Part shown: positions 3,006-24,100 of the stretch, piece by piece
Position numbering within the stretch: the stretch's first letter is position 1
Layout of the letters: each line of letters begins with the position of its first letter
Virus record (IMG/VR): IMGVR_UViG_3300008450_000172
Span: 1 to 36,171 of that record
Origin: a virus
DNA length: 36,171 nucleotides
Direction: 5' to 3' (one strand)
Notes under the pieces: generated by a model
The model's database searches: none
Seen by the model: the letters and a program-made list of their open reading frames with translations, nothing else
What the model was told of the DNA's origin: nothing
Made by a program: the position numbers and the translations under genes

Positions 3006-3013
3006 CTTAGACT

Positions 3014-3023
3014 GCTATATAGC
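3014..3023. other. Perfect 10-bp palindrome GCTATATAGC
   Basis: Self-complementary 10-mer lying between the terminator hairpin and the tRNA-like attP core. It could be part of the attachment region or an operator. No further support. Confidence 0.3.
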
Positions 3024-3028
3024 TTATC

Positions 3029-3045: not shown

Positions 3046-3082
3046 GCCAAAAACCTATATGAATCATAGCTGTTTTTCAGAA

Positions 3083-3105
3083 ATGCCATGATTTATGCCA
3101 TGATT
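3083..3105. repeat. Tandem ATGCCATGATT repeats (12-bp step)
   Basis: ATGCCATGATT occurs at 3083-3093 and again at 3095-3105. The copies lie on the far side of the candidate attP core from int, fitting integrase or excisionase arm sites. Confidence 0.55.
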
Positions 3106-3192
3106 GGCGCTAGGCTTGGATTTGAATCCCTGCGCGGGAGATTGCATCATGCGAACACGGCCAAACCCTACACTCACATAAAAGGAGCGCAC

Positions 3193-3459
3193 ATGATTGA
3201 CCTATTCAAGCCGCCAACAGTCGGCACACCCGATGGACTACGCGCCGTGTCCAAGGAAGAACTGAAGAAGCGCCAGATTGAAATGGCCGACTCCATGCGC
3301 AACGCATACCCCTCTGGCGGCTTGTATGGCCTTATGAGAGGCCATGACGAAGCGCAAAGCGTCTACAACCAACAAATGCGCACAATGCTTGACAACGTGG
3401 GCAAACCTAAAAAGCGCACGATCTGGCAGCGCTTGCAGTTGTGGTGGGCTAGCCGTTAA
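3193..3459 (+). CDS. Lone + strand hypothetical gene (88 aa)
   Basis: The ATG at 3193 has AAAGGAG six bases upstream; the open frame reaches back to 3088, across the attP repeats, without such a site. The product starts with a short hydrophobic segment, is rich in Lys/Arg/Gln, has GGLYGLMRGHDEAQS in the middle and ends WQRLQLWWASR. No known domain. It sits alone between attP and the convergent late operon, so it would be transcribed separately in the lysogen, as a cargo gene might be. Its stop codon forms the first arm of a strong hairpin. Confidence 0.65.
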   Translation: MIDLFKPPTVGTPDGLRAVSKEELKKRQIEMADSMRNAYPSGGLYGLMRGHDEAQSVYNQQMRTMLDNVGKPKKRTIWQRLQLWWASR

Positions 3460-3485
3460 GGATGTCCAGAAAGTGGACACCCTTA
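3457..3485. terminator. Strong hairpin at the convergent junction
   Basis: Arms 3457-3468 and 3474-3485 pair at 11 of 12 positions around a GAAAG loop and include the TAA of the upstream + gene. There is no long T run, so it may act as an RNA 3' end or a weak two-way terminator between this gene and the late transcript arriving from the other side. Confidence 0.5.
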
Positions 3486-3514
3486 AGGAGGCTCACAAAG
3501 TGGGCACCCTTTAA
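3470..3514. repeat. Imperfect direct repeat AAAGTGGACACCCTTA
   Basis: AAAGTGGACACCCTTA at 3470-3485 recurs as AAAGTGGGCACCCTTT at 3497-3512, a 27-bp step. The second copy runs into the stop codon of the phosphoesterase gene. It may be a duplication of part of the hairpin. Confidence 0.55.
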
Positions 3515-4308
3515 GCCGCCTTCTGCGTATATTCGCCAATCGTGATTTCCGAATAGCGCTGGTTGATGTAGTCCAATGTGATAAACATGGGGTCAAACTG
3601 CCCTTCATGCACGTCATACAACATCAGGAAACCGCGCCAATGGCGGTTACCCTGCGGCCCAAGATACGACTCCTGATGCTCATAGCAGCTTCCGGCAATG
3701 ATGCTCACAATCTCCGCGCCGTCAGCCTTAAACGCCGTGGCGATCTGCCTGCCCTGCTGATGGCCTGCAATGCAGCTTTGGTGCTTCTTGTTCAATTGAG
3801 CCTGTGCGCTGGAGGCTGGTCGGCCCATAACGCCGGTTTGGAAAAAGTGAGAAAAGGCGATTCCCTCGATGTTCACCACCTCTAAGAACTTGTGAACCTC
3901 CCAGCCATCCTCTGCATATCCGAGGTTGTCAGTCGATAGCAGGCCATCCAATGCGGGGTCTTTCTCGACGGCACGGTTTATGCGGTCCTCATGGTTGCCC
4001 AAGGTCATCACCATGCGCGGCTTGTACTGCTTTTCCTTGTTGCGCCGTGCCTTGTCGTTGTACTCCCATAGCGGAGTGAGAAAAGCGCACATGGCATCTT
4101 TCGCCGCTTCAATGTCTTTCTTGTAGCGCCTGCCCTCGAATGAGCGCATCCCCTTGTCATAGCTCGATAGGCTGGGCATGTCGGCAAAGTCGCCGATACA
4201 CACCACGACTTCGGGCTTCTTTTCGACCATGTACGTGCCGATGCGCGTCAGAAATGTGAAGTCGATACCTGGCTTCGCTTGCACGTCAGGGAGTACGAGT
4301 ATTTTCAT
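3511..4308 (-). CDS. Calcineurin-like metallophosphoesterase (265 aa)
   Basis: Predicted metal-dependent phosphatase or nuclease. Motifs from the ATG at 4308: D8-V-Q10 (usual D-x-H), GDFAD at 39-43, GNHED at 104-108, SH154 and GHQQ at 182-185 (usual GHxH). Two metal-ligand histidines are thus replaced by Gln, while the GNHE centre is intact. The ATG overlaps the preceding stop (ATGA), better supported than the frame start at 4338. It is the last late gene, after the lysis genes. Substrate unknown; phage relatives are annotated only as phosphoesterases. Confidence 0.82.
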   Translation of the reverse strand: MKILVLPDVQAKPGIDFTFLTRIGTYMVEKKPEVVVCIGDFADMPSLSSYDKGMRSFEGRRYKKDIEAAKDAMCAFLTPLWEYNDKARRNKEKQYKPRMVMTLGNHEDRINRAVEKDPALDGLLSTDNLGYAEDGWEVHKFLEVVNIEGIAFSHFFQTGVMGRPASSAQAQLNKKHQSCIAGHQQGRQIATAFKADGAEIVSIIAGSCYEHQESYLGPQGNRHWRGFLMLYDVHEGQFDPMFITLDYINQRYSEITIGEYTQKAA

Positions 4309-5758: not shown

Positions 5759-7744
5759 TTAAGGTGTAGTTGTCCAGCTTGCGTTAAGCCAAAGCCGTGT
5801 GACGCTAATCGGCGTGGCTTCAAGCGTCCGCACTTCGCCAGTTGCCGCCACGATCACCCGCACACCAGAGAAAACCGAGCCATTCCATACGGTTGCTTGG
5901 CCGTAGAACGGTTCGCGTTGTGGCGAGAACCCTGCCGAAACGCTTGCAACCACCGTGTTAGCCGCAATCACAGCCGGAGTGTTCATAGTGATGTAGCCGT
6001 CAGCCGTCACGACTGAGCCGCTTGCGAGGGTTCGCATACCGCCAGAGCCGGGCAGTGCGTAGCCTGTAGCGGGGGTCACTGAGCTTGTTGTGTCACCCAC
6101 CATCTGCCAAGACTCCCAGCCGGGGGCGTGCGGCCCCAGCGTAGCTGCACGGCCCATGCGGTAAGCCGAGCGCTTGGCATTTACTCCGGCCTCATATGGG
6201 TAGTTTGTCTGGATAACAATGTCGTCCTGAGAGCGTGTCGTAATCAAGATGCCGTCAAGCGGGAAGCCAGTGCCAGCCGCCGCCCGACTTACAGTGACGC
6301 CGTGGCTGTAGGTGCTGGGCAGTCGTGCCGCATCGCCCAAATCTTCAGCCCCGCCGACCACGCGCATGTTTGCCCGTCCGATTTTCCGGCGAAGGCCTTC
6401 AGGAAAGATCACATCAGCCATCAATCCGGCAATCCACGTATTCATCACATTAAGCGGGTGGATTGCGCGTCCGTCTGCGTAGGGGTTGTCCATCCACACA
6501 CCCGCCGCACCACGCGAGTCTTTTAAGAATGCGTAGGTGTCGATAAAGCAGCACTGGAAATCCCGCGCCGCTTGCTTAATGGCTGGCACGATCTGCTCAT
6601 ACCACTGCTCATCGCGCCCGTTGGGGGTGTCTGATGTGCTGTTTGGCGTCATCAGAATGATGGATAACGAGGCCACATTTCGACTTGCACGAATGGTGGT
6701 CAGGCCTGCGCGGAGTGATGTGATGTAGTCATTCACATCGCGGCGATTGGCGTAAGACTGCCCTGCATCTGCCGGAGCGGGTGCGCCACTCTTGAGCCAT
6801 CCGGGATCATTGATGCCCCAGCGAACCACCAACAAATCAGGGTTCGCTGATAGATCGCCTGCTAGGTGGGTGCTTACCCATTGCGCCGTTTGTTGCCCCG
6901 ACTGACCGCGATTAACGGAGGTCAGGCCGTAGGGTGTTTGAAGGCCCACAGCTTCGCCAGCCAATTTAAGCAGGGCGGGAATCTGGTAATCAGCCGATAC
7001 ACCGTCACCGGCTGTCGTGCTGTCACCGCTAAACACCATGATGGGCTTGCGGGTCGGTGCCGAGTGCTGGCTAATCAGCAGGTTGTGAAAAGCGGCTAGG
7101 TACTCTCGGCCAAAAACAATTTTGTGCTTATCGGCGTAGGTGTTTAGCTGCTGCAAGCCGCCCGTGATCGCTTTGACAATAGAGCCGGGACCTTCAAATT
7201 CCACGCCGAACTTGTTAACAGGGGCCGCATCAACGCGGTATTGCCCCTGTGGCAATACGACAGTTCCTTTATTGCCAGCGTCCGCAACGGCGACATTTAC
7301 TGGTGTCGTGTCATTCGCACCACCGCCCACAGCGCCTTTGTCTTTTACGCTGATTGATTCGCTGAGTTTTTCCGCGACTGTTACAGGGCCAAAGCCAACG
7401 GCAGACGCACCGCCGGACCCGCTTAGATCGTTAACAATGTCCCAAACAGGGTCAGCCCTGCGAGTCCACAGGGTAGAACCGTCTGCACGTTTTAACGACA
7501 GGTCGTAACTACCGCCCACCAGATACAGCGGGGCCGATAGCTCACCCCGAGCGTTCAAGGCGATGTATTGACCGCCCTGCCCGTCATTGGTGTATGTGTG
7601 GGGGATGGTTCCGGCGTGGTCCGTGTACGCAGTTTTGTGCGTAGTGGTGCCGAAGTTGTAGGTATAGAGCCTGCCGCCTATGAGGGGGTCGCCCAGATCG
7701 GTGAAGGCTTGGAGATTGAAATCTCCTGAAAGGGAAGCGGACAT
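5759..7744 (-). CDS. Tailspike/fibre with SGNH esterase domain (661 aa)
   Basis: Receptor-binding protein. Residues 1-105 form a podovirus head-binding domain (LGDPLIGGRLYTY, IALNARGEL, YDLSLKRADGSTLWTRR). Residues 125-175 resemble the opening of a pectate-lyase-3 beta-helix (ISVKDKGAVGGG, GTVVLPQGQYRV), cut short. An SGNH/GDSL hydrolase follows: GDS 240-242 (Ser242), G283, G310-I-N312-D, and D424 to H429, a wider gap than the usual DxxH. A beta-rich C-terminus ends the chain. It probably removes acetyl groups from a surface polysaccharide. GGAGTATCAATG gives the start. Length is close to P22 gp9 (667). Confidence 0.9.
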   Translation of the reverse strand: MSASLSGDFNLQAFTDLGDPLIGGRLYTYNFGTTTHKTAYTDHAGTIPHTYTNDGQGGQYIALNARGELSAPLYLVGGSYDLSLKRADGSTLWTRRADPVWDIVNDLSGSGGASAVGFGPVTVAEKLSESISVKDKGAVGGGANDTTPVNVAVADAGNKGTVVLPQGQYRVDAAPVNKFGVEFEGPGSIVKAITGGLQQLNTYADKHKIVFGREYLAAFHNLLISQHSAPTRKPIMVFSGDSTTAGDGVSADYQIPALLKLAGEAVGLQTPYGLTSVNRGQSGQQTAQWVSTHLAGDLSANPDLLVVRWGINDPGWLKSGAPAPADAGQSYANRRDVNDYITSLRAGLTTIRASRNVASLSIILMTPNSTSDTPNGRDEQWYEQIVPAIKQAARDFQCCFIDTYAFLKDSRGAAGVWMDNPYADGRAIHPLNVMNTWIAGLMADVIFPEGLRRKIGRANMRVVGGAEDLGDAARLPSTYSHGVTVSRAAAGTGFPLDGILITTRSQDDIVIQTNYPYEAGVNAKRSAYRMGRAATLGPHAPGWESWQMVGDTTSSVTPATGYALPGSGGMRTLASGSVVTADGYITMNTPAVIAANTVVASVSAGFSPQREPFYGQATVWNGSVFSGVRVIVAATGEVRTLEATPISVTRLWLNASWTTTP

Positions 7745-11785: not shown

Positions 11786-12232
11786 TCAATCCCCCTTCAG
11801 TAGGTTGCAAGCAAGTTGCTTGTTATCTGAGCCGCCCAGCAGCTCTGATGCCTTGGACTCTGTGAAAATCTCCGTCAGCTTGTCTGTGTCTCGCTCATCA
11901 GTCGGATTGGGTGCAAAGTTCGTCCACCGCGAATCCTCGATTGCATAAACTGCGTTCTTCATTCCGGCATGGCACGTAAAGACCTCACCGGCTGCAACTT
12001 CCTTGCTTCCGTCATCTGTCATCACGCGAAGCCGCCCCATCGAAACAACCACCAGATGCTCTTTTTTATGGACAGCACCGACCACGGTTGTGCCTGCTGG
12101 AATGGTGATTTCTCGGGCGTACAGTCCGGGCGCAAAGTAGTGCCGAACAGGGCAATCCACCTGCGGCAAACCAAGCATAGATTGCTCTAGCTTTTCTGCC
12201 TTTACTCGCAGTGATTGCTGCAAGTCCGTCAT
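11786..12232 (-). CDS. Cupin-like virion-region protein (148 aa)
   Basis: The central part reads as a single beta-barrel cupin: YAREITIPAGTTVVGAVHKK, HLVVVSMGRLRVMTDDGSKE, VAAGEVFTCHAGMKNAVYAI. The putative metal-site histidines are partly kept (H at VGAVHKKEH and in CHAG). An N-terminal helix and a charged C-terminal tail extend it. Cupin-like proteins appear in late operons of several podoviruses, but their role is not established. Gene order puts it in the gp26/gp14 region of P22. The ATG overlaps the preceding stop (TAATG). Confidence 0.7.
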   Translation of the reverse strand: MTDLQQSLRVKAEKLEQSMLGLPQVDCPVRHYFAPGLYAREITIPAGTTVVGAVHKKEHLVVVSMGRLRVMTDDGSKEVAAGEVFTCHAGMKNAVYAIEDSRWTNFAPNPTDERDTDKLTEIFTESKASELLGGSDNKQLACNLLKGD

Positions 12233-12564: not shown

Positions 12565-12947
12565 ACATTGTTCCCTTGTTGTAGTGCTTGAATTTCGGTG
12601 TGTAGGTTGTCTACCGCAGCGCGAATGGATGAAAGCTCTCCGCAAGCCTGATCGTTTTGAAACTTCGTTAGCTCATCCACTCGCGCCCGTAGCTCTGCAA
12701 TCTCTGCGGCCATGCCTAGCACGGTCCAAAGGTCGTAAACCGCTGATTTCGTTTCTTCTACGCCTGCATCTTCAAAGGATGAAACCGAGGCGTCTGTAGT
12801 GCTGGGGCCTGTCACACCGCCTGCGCGTTCATTCAGCACAGACAGATAACGCGCCCATTCCATGTCAATCAAAACGGGGACTTTCTGCCCGTTCACCATT
12901 GCCCACCCCAGAGGGATTCGGGCTTGTGGGCTGGCTAGTACCCTCAT
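12561..12947 (-). CDS. Coiled-coil virion protein, tail-needle position (128 aa)
   Basis: The N-terminus has PLGWAMVNGQKVPVLIDM then EWARYLSVLNERAGG, a segment common in short phage virion proteins. The C-terminal half is a coiled coil (MAAEIAELRARVDELTKFQ, LSSIRAAVDNLHTEIQALQQ). In P22 the coiled-coil tail needle gp26 (233 aa) lies at this position. The protein is about half that length, so a shortened needle or plug is only one possibility. ATGA overlaps on both sides. Confidence 0.68.
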   Translation of the reverse strand: MRVLASPQARIPLGWAMVNGQKVPVLIDMEWARYLSVLNERAGGVTGPSTTDASVSSFEDAGVEETKSAVYDLWTVLGMAAEIAELRARVDELTKFQNDQACGELSSIRAAVDNLHTEIQALQQGNNV

Positions 12948-14308
12948 GTGTCGATCACCGCGCCATGAATCGCAAACGGCACATCGTCAGAGCAGCGAAT
13001 GCGGAAAACTCGATTGAACGATGTGCCTAAGCCATTCCAGCGGATTCGCTGCATCCACCGACCCACAGCACCCAGACTGCGGAGCAATTTCGGGCCGAAT
13101 GTCACGCCGCCGTCATTGCTGATTTCTAGGGTCACGACGCCGCCGCAACCTGTTTTCATGGACAGTTCCAGCCCGTAAAAGCTGATTGGCTCCATCGTCG
13201 GCTGCTTCAGGTGGGGCCATGTGCGCTCACGCACCAGCGGACGGCCTGCCAAGTTGTTGACAGACGAATCAAGCCGCACCAGCTTGCCGAACTCATCACC
13301 GGCAAAGTGCTCGCCAGCAAAGGAGGTCACCAATCGGGAGCGCAAAGGCTTCCAGCCGTTTTCCCATTCGCCGCGCTCGTGCCATTGCTGCATGGCTGCG
13401 TCAAACACCCAAGTGGTTTCTAATCCTGGCGCATTGATGGCTACGAACTCATGGCCCTCGATCTGATAGGCCCACATGGTCGCCTTAGAAATGTCGGTGC
13501 TGCCCTTCAGGGCTTCCTCTACTGCCAGCGTAGAAACGCGCCGTGGTTGGTTGCCCTCGGCCATGTAGACGATACCGGCCCCGCGATCTGTTCGGCCAAT
13601 CCAAAACAGCGTATCGGCTGCATTGATGGCGGCACGTTTACCCACGCAGCCCACATCTAATGTGTAGGAGCCATAGCGGATAAATGGGAAATCAATGTCG
13701 CCGCTGTTAATCCAAATCTCTGTGGTCAGTTCACCGAATAGCCACAATTGCCGGTGACTTACCCGATGGGTCACGATGTTGTCAGGCGAAGAATCAGCAC
13801 TAGAGAAATCGAGCGCATCCAAGGCTGTGCCGTTGTCAATGCCGCTTAGGTAGAACTGATCTGTGTCGGGGTCTACAAACACGAAATATCCGTCTAGCTC
13901 TTGCACATCCTCAGAGCCGCGCCATCCTGCCGAGCTAACCAGCGTTAAGGCACCTCCCGCATAGATATACAGGCTTTCTCCATCCACAATTGCAAGCTGG
14001 GTGCTGTTGTGCGCCATGCCAACAAACCCCGCAAAGCTAGACAAGGTGCCGCGATCAATAGCCGCGCCAGCCGCCGAAACCTCATAGAGCTTGACGCCTG
14101 CCACGACAAACCATTTGCCGTTTACGTTGCGCGAACCTCGGATTTCTGCCCCGAGGTCTGCAATCTGCACTTCGCCGGGTGTTGCGGCCATCTGCCAAGC
14201 GTCACCGTCTGTTTTTTTGGGGTAGCAGTTCACCGCAGACTGAACGCCTGCTTTCTTGTCGGCCAAGTGGTAGCTTGGACCCACGCATTGAACATAGCCC
14301 GATTTCAT
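12944..14308 (-). CDS. P22 gp10-like packaged-DNA stabilisation protein (454 aa)
   Basis: Tail hub protein that closes the portal after packaging. It begins YVQCVGPSYHLADKKAGVQS then AVNCYPK, the entry motif of the family (GQSY.L.....D.QR..N.YP). Then come many short beta strands in the manner of a propeller (VNGKWFVVAGVKLYEVS, LQELD-type VQELDGYFVFVDPDTDQFY, LWLFGELTTEIWIN). Length is close to P22 gp10 (472). It is ATGA-coupled to the gp4-like gene upstream, the same pair as in P22. Confidence 0.85.
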   Translation of the reverse strand: MKSGYVQCVGPSYHLADKKAGVQSAVNCYPKKTDGDAWQMAATPGEVQIADLGAEIRGSRNVNGKWFVVAGVKLYEVSAAGAAIDRGTLSSFAGFVGMAHNSTQLAIVDGESLYIYAGGALTLVSSAGWRGSEDVQELDGYFVFVDPDTDQFYLSGIDNGTALDALDFSSADSSPDNIVTHRVSHRQLWLFGELTTEIWINSGDIDFPFIRYGSYTLDVGCVGKRAAINAADTLFWIGRTDRGAGIVYMAEGNQPRRVSTLAVEEALKGSTDISKATMWAYQIEGHEFVAINAPGLETTWVFDAAMQQWHERGEWENGWKPLRSRLVTSFAGEHFAGDEFGKLVRLDSSVNNLAGRPLVRERTWPHLKQPTMEPISFYGLELSMKTGCGGVVTLEISNDGGVTFGPKLLRSLGAVGRWMQRIRWNGLGTSFNRVFRIRCSDDVPFAIHGAVIDT

Positions 14309-14955
14309 CCGAAGAACCCGGCTGGGGTATAGCAGCCCGTGCGAGTGAATGAATCGACATTCATGATTGCGGGTTTGTACTGGCTGATGTTGCCCATCAA
14401 TGCGCGTTCTGCCCTGTCTAACTCGACGGGGATGCGCCCAATCACTACAGGGGCGATGCGCACCGCCAGAGCAGCACCCAGCGCGGATTTGTAGCCTGCG
14501 GGGGCGTAATACTCGGTGGACTCATCGACAAACGTAGCCACGGTGCCGCGAGTCTGAATCTTGATCGTTTGGCCGGTAGGTACGGGCCAGAGAAAAACCT
14601 TGTCCGCACCATCCTGCGCCCACACTTCAGGGCGTCCTGTGGTGTTGGGTGCGTACAGTTCATTGAACTGCTGCATAGTGATGGGGTCCATTGGGATGTT
14701 GTCAGCGGTAGCGCTCACAATCTCCGCGCCCACTGGCACAGAGGCCCAAGCACCCGCGCCTAGCGTGATATGTCCGCTTTGGGGGTTGCTGGTCAGGGTA
14801 CTCAGGAATAAATGAACGCTTTTGCCTGCGAGTTCATCCACCAGCAGATTCAAGCGCCGCATACCTAGCGCCACATCATCAGCGCTCAGGACTTCGCCGG
14901 GGCTTAGGCGGTTGCAACGCTCAAATGCGTCTTGGATTAACTCGATGGCTTTCAT
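14305..14955 (-). CDS. P22 gp4-like portal-tail adaptor (216 aa)
   Basis: Starts MKAIELIQDAFERCNRLSPG then ALGMRRLNLLVDELAGK, the helical N-terminus of the gp4 head-completion family; the middle (PMDPITMQQFNELY, RPEVWAQDGADKVFLWPVP) matches the beta part seen in relatives. It should form the ring below the portal. P22 gp4 is shorter (166 aa) and has muramidase activity; I see no clear catalytic signature here. Its ATG directly follows the stop of the 73-aa gene. Confidence 0.85.
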   Translation of the reverse strand: MKAIELIQDAFERCNRLSPGEVLSADDVALGMRRLNLLVDELAGKSVHLFLSTLTSNPQSGHITLGAGAWASVPVGAEIVSATADNIPMDPITMQQFNELYAPNTTGRPEVWAQDGADKVFLWPVPTGQTIKIQTRGTVATFVDESTEYYAPAGYKSALGAALAVRIAPVVIGRIPVELDRAERALMGNISQYKPAIMNVDSFTRTGCYTPAGFFG

Positions 14956-15177
14956 TTAGGCCTTGTCGATTTCGCTTTGCAGTCGTGCAGCCGACCAGCG
15001 TTTATCAACCTTGATGCCTTTGGACTCAGCCAAGGCAACAAGATCAACCTCTTCGGCTTCACCCTCTACGATGGGGGTAAGCGATGCGTGGGGGTGCTTG
15101 TCGTGTTCTTCCTTGCTGTCCACCACAAAAGAGCCGTCTTTCGTGAAGAGCCAGCGGGGGTATTCTTGATATGCCAT
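14956..15177 (-). CDS. Small head protein with HeH/LEM-like tail (73 aa)
   Basis: The N-terminus YPRWLFTKDGSFVVDSKEEH is a motif I associate with small head-region proteins encoded beside coat genes. The C-terminal 30 residues (LVALAESKGIKVDKRWSAAR then LQSEIDKA) look like a HeH/LEM helix-extension-helix. Probably a minor head or connector component. It follows the coat terminator and precedes the gp4-like gene. Confidence 0.7.
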   Translation of the reverse strand: MAYQEYPRWLFTKDGSFVVDSKEEHDKHPHASLTPIVEGEAEEVDLVALAESKGIKVDKRWSAARLQSEIDKA

Positions 15178-15190
15178 TGCTCACCTAGTT

Positions 15191-15220
15191 AAAAAAGTGG
15201 GCCAGCCGAAACCGGCCCAC
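15191..15220 (-). terminator. Intrinsic terminator after the coat gene
   Basis: On the - strand, GTGGGCC (15220-15214), a 10-base loop, GGCCCAC (15203-15197), then TTTTTT (15196-15191). It sits 26 bases past the coat stop and is probably leaky, giving more coat than tail mRNA. Confidence 0.85.
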
Positions 15221-15245
15221 AAGACTCACCACCAAGGAGAAACGT

Positions 15246-16457
15246 TTACTCGGTTACGCGAGCGCCGTGGTCAGGACGGACAGTCACTTGACCATAGAGC
15301 ACGTCGATACGGGTGTTTTCCACATCGGTCTGGCCGTTGCCAAAGGTCATCACGCGAATGCTGAACTCTGGGGTGCTGTAGGTGTAACCCTCGCACGATG
15401 CCAAGACTGGCAGTGGAACGAAGGCAGCAGCCACGGCATTCTTGTGGAACGCCAAGTTTTGACGGTAGGCCGTAGAAGCCGCGCCGCTCATGGTGCAAGG
15501 TGCGCTGTTTGCAGGCGAAGCGTTCACGGTGCCGATCACGCTGGAAGTCGTGGGGGTGATAGGCGGGTAAATGCCAATCGAACCAGTCGTGCCAGAGGCT
15601 GTGAAGTCAGCTGTCACTACAAAGCTGCGCAGGTTGGCCGCAGGATGGGCTGCACCGGTAATCGGGTGAACCGAGCGAGTCGCCGCGATGGTGAACACGG
15701 TGCCTTTGAGAATCGTCTGGCCCGAAGTCAGGCCGCCGATGTTCAGAGTGGAACCAGTTTGACCAGCGCCGTTAACTGTCCAGCCGGTAGCCGTGCCGTT
15801 GGTGTGAACTGGCAGAGATTGGTTCTCAAAGAACTTGAAGCCCTGTGTGTCACCCATAGAGCCGGTGGTGTACTGGTCGCCCACATCAGGACGGAACAGA
15901 GCGCGGTCAGCAGCCACCATCGAAGAGTTAACGTCGCTGGAAACCAAAGACACACGGTCGCCCATAGGAGCCATGAAGCGATTCAAAGCACCCCGAGCCG
16001 TGGCGAATGGAGCCACAGTCGAAGGGATGGTGCCGGGAGTGCCGTACACGTTAGCAAACGTGGAGTAGGCGGTTACCATCATGTCGGCTTCAACGGTAGA
16101 CACCAGCGATTGCACCGCAGGACGCAGCCATGTTTCGCGGAAGTCTGCAACGTCCATAACCTTCTCGCGGGCGGTGAAGGTCACGGGAACGTGGCGCTGC
16201 TTGTCAACGGTCAGAGATACGGAAGTCTCCACGTTGTCAGGGGCTGCGCCGCCGCCTGCAAAGTTGCTACCGGAGTAGGTAACAGGCACAGGGGGAATCT
16301 TGATCTTGACGGTAGAACCGGATTTGTAACCGGCTGTTTCCTTGCCCACATCGACTTCACGATTGCGGTTCAAGTTTTTGATGAAGTTGCCTTCTTCCAT
16401 GAAGATTTTGGCTGCTTCGCGGGCCACCATTTGGTGGGTAAGGGTCGTATTTGGCAT
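15246..16457 (-). CDS. Major capsid protein, P22 coat-like (403 aa)
   Basis: Builds the icosahedral shell. The start MPNTTLTHQMVAREAAKIFM and motifs EVDVGKETAGYKSGSTVKIK and DKQRHVPVTFTAREKVMDV match the P22 coat family (PF11651), as does the C-terminal VRPDHGARV. Length is near that of P22 gp5 (430). A Ser/Thr/Gly-rich middle section (VNGAGQTGSTLNIGGLTSG) corresponds to the inserted domain region. GGAGCTACAACATG gives a good start. The scaffold gene lies upstream and a strong terminator downstream. Confidence 0.92.
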   Translation of the reverse strand: MPNTTLTHQMVAREAAKIFMEEGNFIKNLNRNREVDVGKETAGYKSGSTVKIKIPPVPVTYSGSNFAGGGAAPDNVETSVSLTVDKQRHVPVTFTAREKVMDVADFRETWLRPAVQSLVSTVEADMMVTAYSTFANVYGTPGTIPSTVAPFATARGALNRFMAPMGDRVSLVSSDVNSSMVAADRALFRPDVGDQYTTGSMGDTQGFKFFENQSLPVHTNGTATGWTVNGAGQTGSTLNIGGLTSGQTILKGTVFTIAATRSVHPITGAAHPAANLRSFVVTADFTASGTTGSIGIYPPITPTTSSVIGTVNASPANSAPCTMSGAASTAYRQNLAFHKNAVAAAFVPLPVLASCEGYTYSTPEFSIRVMTFGNGQTDVENTRIDVLYGQVTVRPDHGARVTE

Positions 16458-16502
16458 GTTGTAGCTCCAGCGTCTCTCGACGTTTAAATGTGTTTAAAAA
16501 AT

Positions 16503-17309
16503 TCAGCGCTTGTTGCGTTTCGCCTCTTGGTGCTTTGCCCATTGAACGTCAGTCATCTTCGATTCATCAGGTTCAGCATTCACGCCACCACCTCGGATTG
16601 ATTCGAGCGGAGCGGGAACTTTCGAGGCACGGGGTTTTGACTTCTGCGACTCTGCGGACAATTGCAATTCAAGTTTGGCGATTGCTCGGCCTGCTTGTAC
16701 TGCGCCCATCTTGCTAATTCGCTCTGCCTCTTCCACGTTGTCAGGGTCTGCGAGCCATTCAATGACTTTGGCTGGTTCGTCGGCTTCAAAGACTGCTTCA
16801 ATGGCTGGCTTGGGCCTACCGCTACGGTCTGTGAGTCCTCCAAACGCTTCATCCAAATCAGATGAAACTTCGTCAAATCGCTCTTTACCCCACGTTTTCT
16901 CAAGCGACGTAATAACACCCTGTCGGCGCTCACTCTCGGCCTTTTCGCTTTGAATAGTCGGTGCGAGCTTTTGGGCTTCAGCTTTGACCAATTCGGCAAT
17001 TTGGGCCTTTGTCAGCGTCAGAGGTTCGCTGTCGTCTGTGTCTTGATTGTTGGGATTTTTTACGCCTCGGGTCAACTGCTCCCGAAGCAAAGCAGCCTCT
17101 GCGCGAGCTTCTTCACGCTGTCGCGTCTTACGATCAAGGCCGCGCCGCAAACGCTCAATTTCGCGCTGCTCTGGCGTCTTTTCGGCCTTTTGCTCTTTCT
17201 GTTCTTCCTCTGTGCCAGCTTCGACCTCTGCTCCTTCAACTTGGGTTGTTTCGGGGTCAGGGCTTGCCGCTGGTTCGTTGTTGGCAATGCTCAGTTCTTC
17301 AGTGGACAC
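16503..17309 (-). CDS. Scaffolding protein candidate (268 aa)
   Basis: GTG start at 17309 with AGGAG and 5-nt spacing. The product is highly charged and helical: an acidic N-terminus (PETTQVEGAEVEAGTEEEQK), a long Lys/Arg/Glu coiled coil (EIERLRRGLDRKTRQREEAR), and a basic C-terminus (VQWAKHQEAKRNKR) like the coat-binding tail of P22 gp8 (303 aa). The location right before coat, the size and the composition support scaffolding; sequence alone does not prove it. Confidence 0.82.
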   Translation of the reverse strand: MSTEELSIANNEPAASPDPETTQVEGAEVEAGTEEEQKEQKAEKTPEQREIERLRRGLDRKTRQREEARAEAALLREQLTRGVKNPNNQDTDDSEPLTLTKAQIAELVKAEAQKLAPTIQSEKAESERRQGVITSLEKTWGKERFDEVSSDLDEAFGGLTDRSGRPKPAIEAVFEADEPAKVIEWLADPDNVEEAERISKMGAVQAGRAIAKLELQLSAESQKSKPRASKVPAPLESIRGGGVNAEPDESKMTDVQWAKHQEAKRNKR

Positions 17310-17423
17310 AAATGCTCCTATGGTCTTTGCACTCTCTCAAGTCACCAGAGAGGCAGCGGCGCTTTGCAGCGTTCGCGGTTAGCAGGGTGATCTGCGTGGA
17401 ATCTTCGTGCTGAGGGGAGAGGT
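17310..17423. other. Non-coding gap upstream of scaffold
   Basis: 114 bases between the SGNH gene and scaffold. On the - strand it contains CTCTC and GAGAG arms separated by nine bases, a further G+C-rich segment, and the scaffold ribosome site. It has no T run and no convincing ORF. It may set the level of scaffold and coat mRNA. Confidence 0.4.
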
Positions 17424-18905
17424 TTAGAAGCCTTGCAATGCCGAAACGACAGTGGCTGCAATCGCCGTGTAACCGGCATCATTAAAGTGCAGGTTGTCCC
17501 CTGAGTTGTACGCGGGAAGCATGTTGAAAGCGCCGTCAGACACAGTGGCGTTTGTGTCGATAGTGAATAGATACCTGCTTGGCCTGAGTGCCTTCACGCG
17601 GTTAACGATGGTCATAGCGTTTGGGTATGTGGCCGCGCTGGCACAAAGTGGCGTCCGCAGAATGAAAGTTACCTTGCGTTGGCGACACCATTCCGCAGCG
17701 GCCATGATTGCGCCCCAAGCAGTGTTTGCCGCTGCAAGTGTGCTTCCATCGTTTGGCGACCAAGCCCCCATAGTGACAAACGCAGGGTTGTACGCGGTAA
17801 CAAAGTTCTTCATTGTCGCGATTGAATCAACGGTCTTTTGTCCGCTGTTCGCAAGGCTTATGAAATTCACAGTCCCATTGAGGAAGTTTGCACGAATAGG
17901 CCACCCCATGTAGCCAGACGCAGAGCTAAGGCCAGCATCACGGCTATCACCGAAAACCGCCCCTGTAATCTTTCGAGTAGCAGACCCGACCAAAACGCCA
18001 ACGATGCAGCTTGGAAGGCTCGCGTTATCCGCTGGAGTATTCGCGCCTGGTGTAGTGGACCAGTTCGCGTTCGCGTTGTAAACCCCTGCCACCTGTGCGC
18101 CGCCATTGGCCGGGTCTGTGTTGATGGCCGTCACTTGCCCAGACCAATTGCCCTTAAAAAGAATTGTTCTAGGGCTTCCGCTTGTTGCGAGGGTTTCAAT
18201 CACCCGAATCAGCTTAGATGTGCCCGAATCAGACCGAGCCAAAGAAGCAACGGGAATCGGGTCGGCCACAGCGATGCTTGGCACGACCTGACCGCCTGCG
18301 CCAGTTGTTGCCGCAGCGAGCGTGAATGAAGCCGATCCGCTGACTGTGCCAGCCGTCCATGTGAGGGTGTTTTGCACTGCCTTGTGCGCCCCAGCAGGGG
18401 CCACAGTGAACCCCGATACCGTCAGCGATTGCGTTGTGTCGTAGTTGGCAAAAACAGGCGACACAAAGTAGAAGTCATCGGGCACGGAAAACTCCATGTC
18501 ATCGGACCAATTCTGACCGGCTGCAACAGATTGCGATGAAGTCGTGGCGGTTGCACAGATGAATGCTGCGGTAATCTGGGCGCAATCTGACAATTCAATA
18601 TTCACCGCCCCGCCAGTCGGTTTTACCAAGCTAACCCCCCCGCTGGAAGGATTGGTTTTCACCTCCGCAAACACAGCCCCCTCATACGAGGGCGAACCAG
18701 ACAGCGAACGAAACGTTACCACTGTGCCATCAACCAGAGGCCCAATGTCCACCGTTTCATTCAGCACCAGCCGAGAGCCACTAGAGCCGCCCGGACCCAC
18801 CCAATCGACCATCATTCGGTCACCCGCAGCGCAGGTAACGGGCACTGATTGCCCCGGCGTTGTAATCGTGAGGGTTGCTACTGACGGGGCGACAAGTGTA
18901 GGCAT
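17424..18905 (-). CDS. SGNH/GDSL hydrolase-domain protein in the head cluster (493 aa)
   Basis: N-terminal residues 1-300 are Ser/Thr/Ala/Gly-rich beta segments in two or three sandwich-like units (TLTITTPGQSVPVTCAAGDR, FSVPDDFYFVSPVFANYD, LTWTAGTVSGSASFTLAA). Residues 312-493 form an SGNH hydrolase: GDS 319-321 (Ser321), NSG 353-355, WSPND with Asn385, and D470-N-L-H473. All blocks are present, so it should be active, probably as an esterase or deacetylase. The ATG overlaps the portal stop (TAATG). P22 has no gene here; a capsid decoration, vertex fibre or tail appendage is possible. Confidence 0.85.
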   Translation of the reverse strand: MPTLVAPSVATLTITTPGQSVPVTCAAGDRMMVDWVGPGGSSGSRLVLNETVDIGPLVDGTVVTFRSLSGSPSYEGAVFAEVKTNPSSGGVSLVKPTGGAVNIELSDCAQITAAFICATATTSSQSVAAGQNWSDDMEFSVPDDFYFVSPVFANYDTTQSLTVSGFTVAPAGAHKAVQNTLTWTAGTVSGSASFTLAAATTGAGGQVVPSIAVADPIPVASLARSDSGTSKLIRVIETLATSGSPRTILFKGNWSGQVTAINTDPANGGAQVAGVYNANANWSTTPGANTPADNASLPSCIVGVLVGSATRKITGAVFGDSRDAGLSSASGYMGWPIRANFLNGTVNFISLANSGQKTVDSIATMKNFVTAYNPAFVTMGAWSPNDGSTLAAANTAWGAIMAAAEWCRQRKVTFILRTPLCASAATYPNAMTIVNRVKALRPSRYLFTIDTNATVSDGAFNMLPAYNSGDNLHFNDAGYTAIAATVVSALQGF

Positions 18906-21070
18906 TACATCATTCCTTCATTGGGTTCTGTGGGTTCGATTGCCTGCTCCATTTGTGGCTCGGCAATGTCGGGAAACTGCATAGGCTCGGGCTGCTCCAT
19001 CGGCAAACCGCCCTGCCATGCTTCGGGGTCTTGCGGCATAGGCTGCTCATCGCCTAGCGGCTGTTCGCTGGTCAGCATCTTGTTAATCAAGTCGCCCACC
19101 ACCGCCTCAATCTGGTCAACGTTTGCGCCGGTTACCTTCAGACGGTCTGTCTCAGCCTTGAACCAGTCAATCTCTAGCGCTTCTTCCTTCACCTTTGCGG
19201 TGCGCTCTGCTTCGTTGGCACGTTGCTCGGCTTCGTCTGCGTCTTGCTGTGCGTCGTGGGCGTGTTGGATGGCCTCTTGCAGCGCTTCCTTCAACTGTTT
19301 GACCTGTTGGGCCAATGCTGCGGGGGCTGGTGCGTCCTCGTGGCCTTCGGGCTGCAAAATAGCCTTGACCGGAGCCGGTGCCATTGCTGCCATTGCCTGC
19401 GCGAACTTGTCGGAGCCGGGGAAATCCAGCGTCTGCGCCCAAAACGGTGCAACAGTCGGAGCAAGTTCGGGATTGCCGCGCATGATTTCGCCAAACGCTG
19501 CATTCGTCTGAGTGCGCTGGGTACTGTAGCTTGCGCCAACAACGACACGAACGGAGTATTTGCCCACGTTCGGGTTAATCGTCACGCCGTCAGTCGTGCT
19601 GCGGTTGAAAGCTTGCTTTTGTTCTGGGTCGTAAGTCACCCGCCCCGCAGAGCCATCCACACCAATGATGGGCTGGCTGCGTCGTGTGTCGCTCAGTCGT
19701 GCGTCCATCTGCATCACGATAGAGCCGACATGCCCAAGACTCGCGGCCATGTGCGCCGGGAAATGCGCGGTAGATGCTTCGCCCTGCTGCTTGCGTGATT
19801 CGATAGCTACGCCGCTTGTCTCGTTGCTGGCTGCGCCCAAGTTTGCTTGGTACATGCCGATTGACGCTTGAATGTCACGCAATGCGCTCTCTGCGCCTGA
19901 TGCATGGTCAACCAGCGAAGAACCCACCTTGACAAGCGTAGGCGCTTGAATCGGGCCGAGGTCGTCCATGTCCTTGTATGGCAAGAAAGCACGGCGCTCA
20001 ACGTGTGCTTTGTCCCACAGCTCTTCAATGCCTGAGACTGCGCGAGTAGATGCCAGCAACTGCGCACCGGGCATCATCAATTCGCTCTTGTGATAGTTGT
20101 AGGCCTGCTGTGCAGACCGTGCGCGGCGAGGGATGCCGCAGTACTTCATACGGCCATCAGCGAAACCGACATAGCCATACACCGGCACGATGCCGATAGC
20201 GTCTGCCTGGTACTCGGACTCTTCCAGAATGTCAGCGCCACTCATGCGCCGCCACTTCACAACCTGCGTCTTATCGCTGTAATTGCGCAAGAACCCAAGC
20301 TGATAGCCTGCTTCTTTGCAAGCGGCCCAATAGTCATCCTCTGTGTCGCTGGCTTCTTGCCCGTCAGCGCCCACATACACAATCATGTTGCGGGTGGTCT
20401 GCTCTTTAAACCACTGCTCGGCCACCAAAACAGACTTGCGGTCTGTGTCGTAGCGCTGCGAGTCCAAAGCGCCAAAATCTACCGCTTCCTTATTCTTCCA
20501 TCGCTGCTTGAACGACGAAATGGACATGCTGGACATGATGAAACCCCAATCAGCGTCTGAGCCGTCTGTCTCTACAGACCAGCTATCAAACACCACCTTT
20601 AGCGGGTCAGGCTCGGAGCCAATGCGGGGTTCTTGCCAGCCTAGAGCGCGATCTACATAGACAGGGCGCACGACAAGATAGCCAACACCTGTACGGGCTG
20701 CGCTTGTCAATGCTCGGGCGTAGTGCTGGCTGGCCTTGGATGCGTGTTCGATGTGGCGAAAGCGCCCGTCGATCTGCTCTGCGGCCTTCTTATCAGCGCC
20801 ACCAGCTACAGGGATGGCGTGAATCGCGGGGGGCTGCTTTTCGACTTGCCCCGCCACGTTTGCGACGTATTGCCCTGTCTGATCGTTAACCAGACATGGG
20901 CGCTTGCCTCCGGGGTCGTTTTCGCGCTGATGGCGAACTTTCTCATCCCACTGTTGAGGGTCTGACGGGTCACTAAAGGCTAGATCTTCCTCGATCTGGA
21001 CGCGCTGCTCCCTCTGGGCGTCCAAACCATCTTGATAAAGCTTTTGCGCTTCAATGAGCGCGTCAGACAT
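18905..21070 (-). CDS. Portal protein, P22 gp1-like (721 aa)
   Basis: Dodecameric channel for DNA packaging and ejection. The N-terminus (EDLAFSDPSDPQQWDEKVR then PCLVNDQTGQYVANVAGQVE), the stretch LTSAARTGVGYLVVRPVYVD and VFDSWSVETDGSDADWGF are typical of the P22 portal family, and length matches P22 gp1 (725). The C-terminus is a long Glu/Ala coiled coil (KQLKEALQEAIQHAHDAQQD), fitting the P22-type barrel. Its first 91 bases overlap the preceding small gene, and no strong ribosome site is seen, so translation may be coupled or controlled by the hairpins at 21119-21161. Confidence 0.93.
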   Translation of the reverse strand: MSDALIEAQKLYQDGLDAQREQRVQIEEDLAFSDPSDPQQWDEKVRHQRENDPGGKRPCLVNDQTGQYVANVAGQVEKQPPAIHAIPVAGGADKKAAEQIDGRFRHIEHASKASQHYARALTSAARTGVGYLVVRPVYVDRALGWQEPRIGSEPDPLKVVFDSWSVETDGSDADWGFIMSSMSISSFKQRWKNKEAVDFGALDSQRYDTDRKSVLVAEQWFKEQTTRNMIVYVGADGQEASDTEDDYWAACKEAGYQLGFLRNYSDKTQVVKWRRMSGADILEESEYQADAIGIVPVYGYVGFADGRMKYCGIPRRARSAQQAYNYHKSELMMPGAQLLASTRAVSGIEELWDKAHVERRAFLPYKDMDDLGPIQAPTLVKVGSSLVDHASGAESALRDIQASIGMYQANLGAASNETSGVAIESRKQQGEASTAHFPAHMAASLGHVGSIVMQMDARLSDTRRSQPIIGVDGSAGRVTYDPEQKQAFNRSTTDGVTINPNVGKYSVRVVVGASYSTQRTQTNAAFGEIMRGNPELAPTVAPFWAQTLDFPGSDKFAQAMAAMAPAPVKAILQPEGHEDAPAPAALAQQVKQLKEALQEAIQHAHDAQQDADEAEQRANEAERTAKVKEEALEIDWFKAETDRLKVTGANVDQIEAVVGDLINKMLTSEQPLGDEQPMPQDPEAWQGGLPMEQPEPMQFPDIAEPQMEQAIEPTEPNEGMM

Positions 21071-21354
21071 TGAAAACTTTCATCGGGCGTTATCCAACGT
21101 TGCGATGTGGGGGAGAGTAAGGGTTTTTTACATAAACGCATCAACCCTTTTTGAGGGTTACGGCATTGCCTCACCGCAAGCCGCAGCGCGTCGCCATCGT
21201 CTGTGAGTGGACGCCAAAATACAAGCACTGGCTGCTCATTGACAAACTCAGGTTCAATCGAAGAAACAATTGCCCCTCCTTTGGAGTCATCCAGAAACTT
21301 ACCAGCGATCCCCGCAGCCTTGGCCGCCTTCTCCAATAGCTCACGATCATTCAT
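20980..21354 (-). CDS. Small phage protein with overlong tail (124 aa)
   Basis: Residues 1-62 (MNDRELLEKAAKAAGIAGKF, FWRPLTDDGDALRLAV) match a widespread small phage protein marked by W-x-PLTDDGDALRLA. Beyond residue 65 the composition turns basic and Ser-rich, and the reading frame runs through alternative hairpins and 91 bases into portal in another frame. The last third may therefore be a read-through tail after a lost stop or frameshift. Start is by ATGA overlap at 21351-21354. Confidence 0.65.
   Translation of the reverse strand: MNDRELLEKAAKAAGIAGKFLDDSKGGAIVSSIEPEFVNEQPVLVFWRPLTDDGDALRLAVRQCRNPQKGLMRLCKKPLLSPTSQRWITPDESFQCLTRSLKRKSFIKMVWTPRGSSASRSRKI
21119..21161. promoter_or_regulatory. 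Three-arm mutually exclusive hairpins upstream of portal
   Basis: On the + strand: arm A AAGGGTT (21119-21125), arm B AACCCTT (21143-21149), arm C AGGGTTAC (21154-21161). B can pair with A (17-base loop) or with C (5-base loop TTTTG), not both. In the - strand mRNA the structure lies about 50 nt before the portal ATG. No T run follows on that strand, so translational or decay control fits better than termination. Confidence 0.5.
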
Positions 21355-21527
21355 AGCTTCCCCCTTGTTTGCTCAATAGCCTCATCCAGCAAGCGCTTTG
21401 CCCAGCGACTACCGCCTAGCTCATCCCACTTAGCCTTTTGCTCGTCAGTCAGCCGCGCCTTGACGATGTGTCGGGCAGGGTTGTCCAATGGTGGACGCCC
21501 TGCGCCCTCTCGTTTTCCGCCTTTCAT
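21351..21527 (-). CDS. Small basic DNA-binding-like protein (58 aa)
   Basis: ATG at 21527 in an ATGA overlap. The N-terminus MKGGKREGAGRPPLDNPAR is the GAGRPP AT-hook-like segment that precedes ribbon-helix-helix or small helical domains in many phage and plasmid proteins. VKARLTDEQKAKWDELGGSR then WAKRLLDEAI fits a short DNA-binding module. It may regulate late genes; no target is evident. Confidence 0.68.
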   Translation of the reverse strand: MKGGKREGAGRPPLDNPARHIVKARLTDEQKAKWDELGGSRWAKRLLDEAIEQTRGKL

Positions 21528-21667
21528 GCTGGCTTGTAGTTCTCTGCATAGTCGCAGCGACCCATGCAGCGCTTGAAGTCGTCCTCTGTCTCGCTTACCC
21601 ATACCTTGCCATCTTGATAGGGGGCAATGTAGACAGTGCAGCCGGTGGTGATGTTGATTGCTTTCAT
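21524..21667 (-). CDS. Hypothetical small protein (47 aa)
   Basis: ATG at 21667 with AAGGCGG upstream; the frame extends to 21712 but without that site. The product (MKAINITTGCTVYIAPYQDG, FKRCMGRCDY) is soluble, with three cysteines. Family not recognised. ATGA overlap with the next gene. Confidence 0.6.
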   Translation of the reverse strand: MKAINITTGCTVYIAPYQDGKVWVSETEDDFKRCMGRCDYAENYKPA

Positions 21668-21680
21668 GATTTGCCGCCTT

Positions 21681-21869
21681 TCAGAGTGACCAAATCGCAT
21701 CGAGATCATCAAAGGTTGCGCGAGTTACCCAAGAGCCGTCCGCAAAGAAATATGTCTTTTCTACATCGTCGTGAATCTCGATTGACACTGACTGAGATTC
21801 GCACATTTGAATTGCCTGCGCCTCGAAACCGCCGTCACGCAATTCGATGATGTTTTCTGCTGTGGTCAT
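21681..21869 (-). CDS. Hypothetical acidic protein (62 aa)
   Basis: AAGGGGA lies 6 bases before the ATG at 21869; the in-frame ATG at 21875 directly abuts that site and is less likely. The product has AENIIELRDGGFEAQAIQMC and IEIHDDVEKTYFFADG and ends in an acidic segment. No domain seen. It is the first gene after a good promoter (21902-21930), leading the portal-head transcript. Confidence 0.65.
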   Translation of the reverse strand: MTTAENIIELRDGGFEAQAIQMCESQSVSIEIHDDVEKTYFFADGSWVTRATFDDLDAIWSL

Positions 21870-21901
21870 CTTCATTCCCCTTAGTGTGTTGCGTTGAATG
21901 A

Positions 21902-21930
21902 ATTGTAAGGCCCACAACAAACAATTGCAA
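21902..21930 (-). promoter_or_regulatory. Probable promoter for the portal-head gene block
   Basis: On the - strand, TTGCAA (21930-21925), a 17-bp spacer, TACAAT (21907-21902). This is the strongest housekeeping-type promoter I see in the late region. It lies in the only real gap between TerL and the following small genes. Confidence 0.6.
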
Positions 21931-21956
21931 TCAGTATTTGCAACCGTTCGTCGGAT

Positions 21957-23177
21957 TTAGATAGCCCGCCCCTGCGCTGCTGATTTGGTGTAGTCGTGTT
22001 GCGGCATAGCCTTGCCTGCGCGTCGTGCGCCCTCACACGCATAACGGAGCGCGTCAATCAAGTGGTTGTCCTTGTCAGCCAGCATCGGCATCACTTCGCC
22101 GGTTAGCGGGTCGGTCTTGTAGCTGTACAGCGTTAGCTCATCAATCAAGTGCTGGCAGCGTGGGTGAATCACCATGTCGAAGCTTTTCAGGAACTCCACG
22201 CCCTCTTCCAGACTCTTAGCGCCCTTGATGGCCGATCGAATCTTAGGGAAGCCGTTACGCTGCATATGGCTGATCGTCTCAGGCCGTGCGGAGTCGGCAA
22301 CAATCGGCCACTTCTCGGACTCGGGAACGCTCATAAACAGGTCTGGCAGATTGACAATCTCGCAGCCCACTTGCCACGCCTCGTAATCCACGTACAGGCG
22401 GTTGCCCTCGATAGAGCAGCGAACGAGCGTAGAAGGGTCAACACTGAAACCCCAATCAGCCCCCAGCCGGTAAACCGTGCCTGCGGGTCGCTCAAATTCC
22501 TCAATAGACCAGTTGCGAAACACTCGCGCTTCACTGTTGCGCCGGTACTCACCTAGCCAAACGTGCGCATATTTCTCGGGGTCGCGGCGCTTGTCGAACT
22601 CCATTTCTTCCCGCAGTTCTTCAGGAAGCCACGGGTTATCCATGTAGTTCGCCTGCACTACAACCGCGCCAGTCGGCAAAGTCTCGCCCCTTAGCAACAC
22701 ATCAATTGGGTCGGTTGCCAAGTCTGGGTTCCAGCCGAACCAAAGCTGAGAGCCGGGCTTACGGATAGTCGGGCGCAGCATGGTTAGGCTCTTATCGCTG
22801 GCGTTCTGAGCCTCTTCAAACCAAGCGCGGTCAAAGCCCTCAAGCGACTTAATCGACTCGCTGGTGTGGTTCTGCATCCCTTCAAAGATCGTCACGCCTC
22901 CACGCTTGGAGAATATGCGCCGGTCCTGAATCTCAAAATAAGCGCCTGCGTTGAACTTCTCGATCTTGCTCTCCAGCAGCTTCTTCACGGAGAACTCTAG
23001 AGACTTCAGCGTCTCGCGCAGACACACACAGTCCAGCTTTTGGCTGATGTTTTCCTCTAGCCACAGTTCACCAAAGAAGTGCGACTTACCCGAACCGCGC
23101 CCACCGTGCGCCCCTTTGTATCGAGCAGGCGCAAGCAATGGCTCAAAGACTGCGGGTGTGTCTAGCTCTAGCTTCAT
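21957..23177 (-). CDS. terL: Terminase large subunit (406 aa)
   Basis: Packaging motor ATPase and nuclease. Walker A GGRGSGKS (25-32), Walker B AWFEEA (118-123), and nuclease acidic residues D241 (GADWGFSVDPS), D295 (VADSARPE) and D375 (NHLIDALRYA). It fits the Terminase_3/PBSX group, shorter than P22 gp2 (499 aa, by memory). The ATG overlaps the TerS stop (ATGA). Headful packaging is likely from the family and gene set, but the window shows no pac site I can identify. Confidence 0.95.
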   Translation of the reverse strand: MKLELDTPAVFEPLLAPARYKGAHGGRGSGKSHFFGELWLEENISQKLDCVCLRETLKSLEFSVKKLLESKIEKFNAGAYFEIQDRRIFSKRGGVTIFEGMQNHTSESIKSLEGFDRAWFEEAQNASDKSLTMLRPTIRKPGSQLWFGWNPDLATDPIDVLLRGETLPTGAVVVQANYMDNPWLPEELREEMEFDKRRDPEKYAHVWLGEYRRNSEARVFRNWSIEEFERPAGTVYRLGADWGFSVDPSTLVRCSIEGNRLYVDYEAWQVGCEIVNLPDLFMSVPESEKWPIVADSARPETISHMQRNGFPKIRSAIKGAKSLEEGVEFLKSFDMVIHPRCQHLIDELTLYSYKTDPLTGEVMPMLADKDNHLIDALRYACEGARRAGKAMPQHDYTKSAAQGRAI

Positions 23178-23497
23178 GGCTTCACAATCCGTCGTTCAAT
23201 GACCGTAATCAGTTCACCTGCTATCTTGATGTCCTGCGGCTGCGTAGGCTTGCCATAAGCCCGTTCAATGATCGACTGCGCAGCACTCAGGCGCGTCTGT
23301 TCCTTCTCGCCGTTCTGCATGATGTCCAGAATCACGTTCAGGGCGTCAGGCGTCTTTTCCTTGCAAGCAGCTATCAAATCAAGCTCTTGAGGCGTCTGCT
23401 TAGGCCTGCCCCGTGGGTTGCCAGACTTGCCAGCGACAAAGCCATTTGCAGGCGGCGGCTTCTTACGATTTTTTTCTTTGTTAGCAATCATTCCCAT
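23174..23497 (-). CDS. terS: Terminase small subunit candidate (107 aa)
   Basis: Immediately before TerL with ATGA overlap. The N-terminus carries GFVAGKSGNPRGRPKQTP, a DUF5681-like DNA-binding segment; the rest is helical (LDLIAACKEKTPDALNVILD, RLSAAQSIIERAYGKPTQP) as in small terminases that recognise pac. Two starts are possible: 23497 (AAAGG four bases upstream) or 23491 (ATGA overlap with the preceding stop). Role assigned by position and pattern. Confidence 0.8.
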   Translation of the reverse strand: MGMIANKEKNRKKPPPANGFVAGKSGNPRGRPKQTPQELDLIAACKEKTPDALNVILDIMQNGEKEQTRLSAAQSIIERAYGKPTQPQDIKIAGELITVIERRIVKP

Positions 23498-23724
23498 TTA
23501 ACCTTTCCATGTGCCGCTAGTGATGTTTCCACTTTGTCCCTGTAGTAATCAGCCAAGTGCTTAAAACCCGCCTTCTTCGCCCAGTACCAGTCGCGCATCC
23601 TTATCCGGTTCGCATCCTCCCGGCTCATGCACTTGAAGTTCGGCATTTCAAAGATAGGCGGTTTTTGCATTTCCTCGGTGCGATAGAGAATTGCAAACGC
23701 GCCTAGTGGTCGGTTGAATTGCAT
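23488..23724 (-). CDS. Hypothetical protein before terS (78 aa)
   Basis: AAGGGGC lies upstream of the ATG at 23724. The product contains KCMSREDANRIRMRDWYWAK and LADYYRDKVETSL, basic and helical. The gene overlaps terS by up to 10 bases. An internal ATG at residue 19 is an alternative start. No family recognised; possibly a packaging accessory protein, by place only. Confidence 0.62.
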   Translation of the reverse strand: MQFNRPLGAFAILYRTEEMQKPPIFEMPNFKCMSREDANRIRMRDWYWAKKAGFKHLADYYRDKVETSLAAHGKVKWE

Positions 23725-23776
23725 GTCTTGCCCCTTGCTTAGTAGTGGTCGATGCGGGTGTATGGGCGGGGTTGGT

Positions 23777-24100
23777 TTAGGCGGCTAGATTGAAAATTGA
23801 GTTAGCCCCTGCAAACACGCTTGATTTGCCTCGGACTTGCTTTACTTCCTCAGTCTTGCGGACATAGGCGCGGGGCTTCTTGCCATACACGCGCTCTCTC
23901 CAGTCATCCACTAAGCGGAACGTGTGCGGGTAGGTGGTTCTGTCAACCGTCATCAGTCGCAGCCCTACAGCGCGGCTCAGGTACTTGTGACAGTTGGTTT
24001 GGTGCTGGTCGGCCCATTCCTTGAACAGGTGGGAGCTGGTGATCGTCCCCAGCGTTTCGCACATTTCGAGTGCAAAGAGGATTCGCTTGCCGACTCTCAT
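23777..24100 (-). CDS. Winged-helix-like protein, possible late regulator (107 aa)
   Basis: ATG at 24100 in an ATGA overlap with the DUF3310 gene. Residues 5-70 look like a winged helix (ILFALEMCETLGTITSSHLF, NCHKYLSRAVGLRLMTVDR); the C-terminus is basic (KKPRAYVRKTEEVKQVRG). It lies between the last early gene and packaging genes, the place where lambdoid phages keep their Q antiterminator or late regulator. Nothing in the sequence shows antitermination, so this is a positional guess. Confidence 0.65.
   Translation of the reverse strand: MRVGKRILFALEMCETLGTITSSHLFKEWADQHQTNCHKYLSRAVGLRLMTVDRTTYPHTFRLVDDWRERVYGKKPRAYVRKTEEVKQVRGKSSVFAGANSIFNLAA

Follow-up and report, generated by a model that had tools for sequence, protein, structure and literature searches.

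What does a gene for an SGNH-type esterase do between the portal and scaffold genes of a P22-like phage? The window that raises this question is the whole IMG/VR record IMGVR_UViG_3300008450_000172, which is 36,171 bases long. The record has a direct terminal repeat of 105 bases (1-105 and 36067-36171) and is therefore probably a complete circular-mapping genome. Given an integrase-like ORF at 1722-2969, recognised by eye, the phage is probably temperate. Its P22-type structural block is encoded on the minus strand, and the part around the esterase gene, hereafter the cassette gene, is as follows.

18905..21070, minus strand: P22-type portal (PF16510, E 1.6e-109), whose stop codon overlaps the start of the cassette gene
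17424..18905, minus strand: cassette gene, 493 aa, putative anchor plus predicted carbohydrate-esterase-like SGNH hydrolase (P0001), from the ORF, Pfam and the structure model
16503..17309, minus strand: scaffold protein, downstream neighbour of the cassette gene (phrog_8865, E 8.6e-18)
15246..16457, minus strand: P22-type coat protein, next after the scaffold (Pfam search)

An earlier note on this DNA had placed an esterase ORF between portal and scaffold; we confirmed the ORF at 17424-18905 and assigned it to the minus strand, which the note had not given. The TAATG coupling to the portal described there is real: the junction reads ...ATGATGTAATGCC..., and the start codon of P0001 sits on the portal stop. 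Promoter-like and terminator-like sites belonging to the cassette gene were no commoner than in shuffled sequences, so that a moron-type gene with its own promoter or terminator is unsupported.

We examined the enzyme assignment by several routes. The catalytic set named in the earlier note is present in P0001, with the blocks in the order G319-D320-S321, G355, N385, D470 and H473, and every residue is kept in P0002, the protein of the sister phage described below. The score of P0001 against PF13472 (E 0.0017, 19.4 bits) was under the Pfam cut-off of 32.9 bits. Its near-twin P0002 reached 45.3 bits, above the cut-off, and L112, a relative with 34% identity to P0001 from a genome of the Janthinobacterium order, reached 33.0 bits, just above it. 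A profile of the P0001 family matched solved SGNH hydrolases in the PDB at E 6e-14. The positions of the catalytic parts, the last of them as predicted by the model, are given below.

17943..17951, minus strand: SGNH block I Gly-Asp-Ser, residues 319-321, with the nucleophile Ser321 (position from the translation)
17487..17498, minus strand: SGNH block V Asp470-x-x-His473 (position from the translation)
17427..18590, minus strand: predicted two-part esterase, residues ~106-493, made up of a beta domain and the SGNH domain (313-493); Z 17.5/17.3

Single-sequence structure prediction of P0001 gave a pLDDT of 33, and an AlphaFold2 monomer model built from a 24-row alignment was used instead. In this model, residues 1-78 were confident (pLDDT 87-96), the catalytic domain was fair and residues 79-300 were of low confidence. 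The beta-sandwich N-terminus proposed in the earlier note was recovered for residues 1-78 of the predicted model. Residues 106-493 aligned by VIA-align with polyvinyl alcohol esterase (9kr0, Z 17.5) and the carbohydrate esterase PbeAcXE (7tog, Z 17.3), which have the same two-part fold; unlike P0001, these enzymes are cellular and lack the anchor, and at 11-14% identity their substrates are not transferable to P0001. Residues 313-493 aligned with solved GDSL enzymes at Z 14-17 and an rmsd of ~3 Å, with a flavodoxin-like SGNH fold. The structure prediction suggested in the earlier note therefore returned an SGNH fold, shared with polymer and carbohydrate esterases at Z 17.5. By its residues, the Pfam scores of its relatives, the profile-to-PDB match and the model, P0001 is an SGNH hydrolase whose activity is predicted.

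The closest phage, IMG/VR 3300008448_000275 (the sister phage), is 92–94% identical in DNA sequence over 12633-23785 and ~90% identical down to 10329. A hole in this similarity at 17419-18632 coincides with the C-terminal coding part of the cassette gene, to the nucleotide neighbourhood of its stop codon. The only other unmatched stretch within 12633-23785 is 21133-21957, which lies between the portal and terminase. Three regions enter the comparison.

18633..18905, minus strand: putative anchor domain, codons 1-91 (beta-sandwich residues 1-78), 91% identical in DNA to that of the sister phage, with a dN/dS of 0.25
17419..18632, minus strand: coding region of the exchanged C-terminal part, unmatched in the DNA of the sister phage, with homology present again from the stop of the gene onward
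5759..7744, minus strand: tailspike, which also carries an SGNH domain (PF13472, E 4.2e-14); first 113 codons conserved, the rest swapped relative to the sister phage

In the comparison with the sister phage, dN/dS was 0.25 in the anchor and 0.22 in the N-terminal part of the tailspike, whereas the portal and coat had values of 0.03–0.04. These values, together with the common swap pattern, indicate that the cassette gene evolves like the tailspike and not like the neighbouring head genes. The second esterase that the earlier note had seen in the tailspike is borne out by the SGNH domain there; since only 113 codons of that tailspike are conserved in the sister phage, this phage has two separate swappable esterases. 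P22-type tailspikes combine a conserved head-binding domain with an exchanged enzyme domain. The cassette gene follows the same evolutionary pattern, which is seen in the tailspike of this very phage, but its anchor sequence, position and enzymes are all different.

Two other proteins were conspicuous in the comparison with the sister phage. The coat (15246-16457, minus strand) is 99% identical to that of the sister phage but only 27–31% identical to the coats of phages whose portals are 50–76% identical; from these sequences, the coat looks to have been exchanged independently of the portal. A small protein at 11786-12232 (minus strand), which matches phrog_12032 'short tail fiber protein' at E 5.7e-47, is 97% conserved in the sister phage.

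To follow the slot across the clade, we collected ~80 portal relatives and read their portal-scaffold junctions; the counts are approximate, and some contigs end inside the slot. The junction was empty in ~36 relatives, mostly with the portal and scaffold overlapping; L008 and L009 were counted here, their slot ORF being the annotated scaffold and not cargo. At 23 loci (21 distinct phages), the first 75–95 residues of the slot gene matched the N-domain of P0001, and in ~19 relatives the slot was filled by other genes. Nineteen of the 21 distinct anchor genes begin no more than 3 nt from the portal stop, and the other two overlap it by 25 nt. The search for the same gene at portal-scaffold junctions, which the earlier note had put forward, thus yielded the anchor gene in ~23 P22-like phages (the 21 distinct phages, the source phage itself and L093). 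The statement in that note that such operons go from portal straight to scaffold holds for one of two common states only, because the junction is often occupied in this clade. A literature search of incomplete coverage returned no paper describing an enzyme encoded between portal and scaffold in P22-like phages.

We searched the 9,731 ORFs of all loci with an HMM of the N-domain. The HMM matched the slot proteins with E values down to 1e-50 and, beyond these, only L099/L100, L091 and, marginally, L117 (E 0.03). The L099/L100 gene encodes an anchor plus SGNH and lies between the terminase and a different portal. L091 has two anchor copies between gp4-like and gp10-like genes, one pectate-lyase-like and the other with SGNH-like motifs. 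L013 and L014, which came from a search with an 85-aa anchor, were rejected as chance matches. The anchor had no match among 50,697 phage records (tblastn with six representatives) or among 399 genomes from the order to which Janthinobacterium, the sole prophage host seen, belongs; remote relatives may be missed in both searches. In a comparison aimed at the P22-type head-binding domain family, the N-terminal part of P0001 had no Pfam match, and the only PDB matches of the anchor profile were low-complexity ones, to TAL repeats. Matches to PHROG 'head decoration' families in the relatives were weak and located on the C-terminal part or an internal repeat. In a co-variation search for a docking partner, anchor similarity tracked none of terL, portal, scaffold, coat, gp4 and gp10. 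Because the anchor occurs in three gene slots and co-varies with no single structural gene, the dock may be the portal, connector, tail or capsid.

The C-terminal parts carried by this anchor were then compared. They include SGNH domains of clearly different kinds, a polysaccharide deacetylase and a pectate lyase; for others, no family was assigned. Anchor-fused SGNH domains have Pfam or PHROG support in P0001, L002, L015, L024, L025, L042, L047, L053 and L099; that of L023 was assigned by similarity to P0001 and that of L055 by motif only. The polysaccharide deacetylase is found in L058 (PF01522, 27.9 bits against a cut-off of 23.1) and the pectate lyase in L019 (phrog_11548, E 2.3e-58). Several alignment-led scans for further C-terminal relatives yielded none. 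Most of the assigned C-terminal parts belong to families that act on glycans or their ester groups.

Head clusters of unrelated phages also encode relatives of the catalytic module, attached there to other N-termini: L112/L115, which have an HK97-type portal (PF04860), gp33 of Iodobacter phage phiPLPE, gp5 of Gordonia phage Zany (two genes past the portal) and L117. The L117 SGNH gene (2113-3648) is flanked by a MuF-type gene for head morphogenesis and by the scaffold gene, which it directly precedes, and its N-terminus is faintly anchor-like. In the cultured Vibrio phage 1.184.A, a P22-portal phage, the SGNH gene gp05 (L124 2413-3750) occupies the terminase-portal interval, from which such a gene is missing in a related Vibrio phage. 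Zany gp5, 1.184.A gp05 and L117 resemble P0001 as esterase genes near the portal, terminase or scaffold, but their gene positions differ, the anchor was not detected in 1.184.A, and the L117 match is only at E 0.03. The top match to P0001 in the viral structure library was the 'putative acylhydrolase' phiPLPE gp33 (452 columns, E 4.3e-12). It is likewise a head cluster gene, after the major capsid gene and beside virion proteins; it differs in its fibre-like N-terminus and in belonging to another phage type. In the phiPLPE record, gp34 and gp35 are flagged as confirmed by mass spectrometry and gp33 is without the flag, which is a mild point against display.

Tail proteins with comparable activities have been described. 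Gp66 of Pectobacterium phage Possum O-deacetylates O-polysaccharide (PMC9569702), gp63.1 of E. coli phage G7C is cited in that paper as an SGNH tail deacetylase, and the Moo19 and B2 tailspikes have esterase activity (PMC11654681). These are SGNH-type or esterase adsorption proteins with modular N-terminal attachment, as is proposed for P0001. In contrast to P0001, whose gene lies between portal and scaffold, they are encoded by tail genes; P0001 also differs in that its anchor is without a sequence match to known families and that a separate SGNH tailspike coexists with it. The enzyme class and the modular receptor-zone principle are known, and so are virion SGNH deacetylases on tail fibres, whereas the anchor domain and the portal-scaffold slot look new.

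We consider that the cassette gene probably encodes an exchangeable virion-anchored glycan esterase, which would give the phage another receptor-zone enzyme in addition to the tailspike. Translational coupling would make P0001 in step with the portal, and the protein would then join the head or connector, its N-terminal beta-sandwich of ~80 residues docking it on the virion. The C-terminal SGNH esterase, with its own beta domain, would most likely strip acetyl groups from host surface polysaccharide during adsorption, while the tailspike acts alongside. The analysis shows the fold family, the catalytic residues, the place in the operon, an N-part that is kept while the C-parts are exchanged, and the glycan-active character of several alternative C-parts; that P0001 is in the virion, where it docks, what it acts on and that it serves adsorption are what we infer. 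The virion-displayed polysaccharide esterase of the earlier note fits the anchor-like N-domain, the swapped glycan-active C-termini, the tailspike-like mosaic, the lack of promoter or terminator signals above shuffles and the carbohydrate-esterase fold; what the note missed is that the slot holds many alternative enzymes. That about half of the relatives are without a slot gene counts against the virion-esterase account, as do the low confidence of the model at residues 79-300, the lack of any one structural gene that anchor similarity follows and the unflagged phiPLPE gp33; nor did we find virion proteomics for an anchor-bearing phage.

Other roles for the gene were weighed against this one. 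The enzyme might serve lysogenic conversion or superinfection exclusion, being made in the cell and altering the host's own surface glycan without entering the virion. The integrase-like ORF of a probably temperate phage agrees with this, and deacetylation of surface sugars could block later phages. However, the gene is coupled to the portal, shows no promoter or terminator signal above shuffles and encodes an N-terminus in which no signal-peptide-like hydrophobic run was seen by eye in the translation; moreover, conservation of the anchor across different enzymes would need another explanation. We regard a conversion enzyme as unlikely. Release in the lysate, where the enzyme would loosen biofilm or extracellular polysaccharide for the dispersal of progeny, is in our judgement very unlikely: a free enzyme would need neither a conserved 80-residue N-domain nor a head-cluster location, even though P0001 matches esterases of polymers and polysaccharides in fold and the tailspike already supplies one esterase.

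The position between portal and scaffold and the coupling to the portal stop would also suit a factor whose N-domain binds the portal or scaffold during head assembly, the enzyme part being incidental or degraded. The empty junctions in ~36 relatives indicate that assembly does not need the slot gene. The anchor also lies between the terminase and a different portal in L099/L100 and between gp4-like and gp10-like genes in L091, and the C-terminal parts retain catalytic residues and diversify, all of which makes an assembly role highly improbable. The virion-anchored esterase is the reading that we prefer.

A broader proposal, which we put forward tentatively as somewhat short of an even chance, is that this P22-like clade has a second, hitherto undescribed enzyme-display system that is independent of the tailspike. 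Its dedicated docking domain would sit on or close to the capsid or portal vertex, would be encoded in a plug-in slot after the portal, and would carry deacetylases, lyases and further enzymes acting on glycans that can replace one another. Host range is usually inferred from the tail genes of a phage. If a second swappable set of glycan enzymes lies in head-cluster slots, these slots should also be searched when hosts are predicted or depolymerases sought. The anchor domain would also serve as a handle for enzyme display on P22-type particles and as a simple marker to track enzyme exchange in uncultured phages.

The slots filled without this anchor hold varied cargo. The slot of DSL-LC05 contains a pectate-lyase-like tailspike set, that of L062 an SGNH domain on a different N-terminus, and those of L004, L065 and L077 multi-gene beta-rich sets. 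In L077/L078 (10188-17498) and L065 (7489-13158), the cargo consists of five genes, among whose products are a protein of 1418 aa and another in which YFGxRYFG motifs are repeated. L062 and L065 have a common N-terminal region, which at the sequence level suggests a second anchor family.
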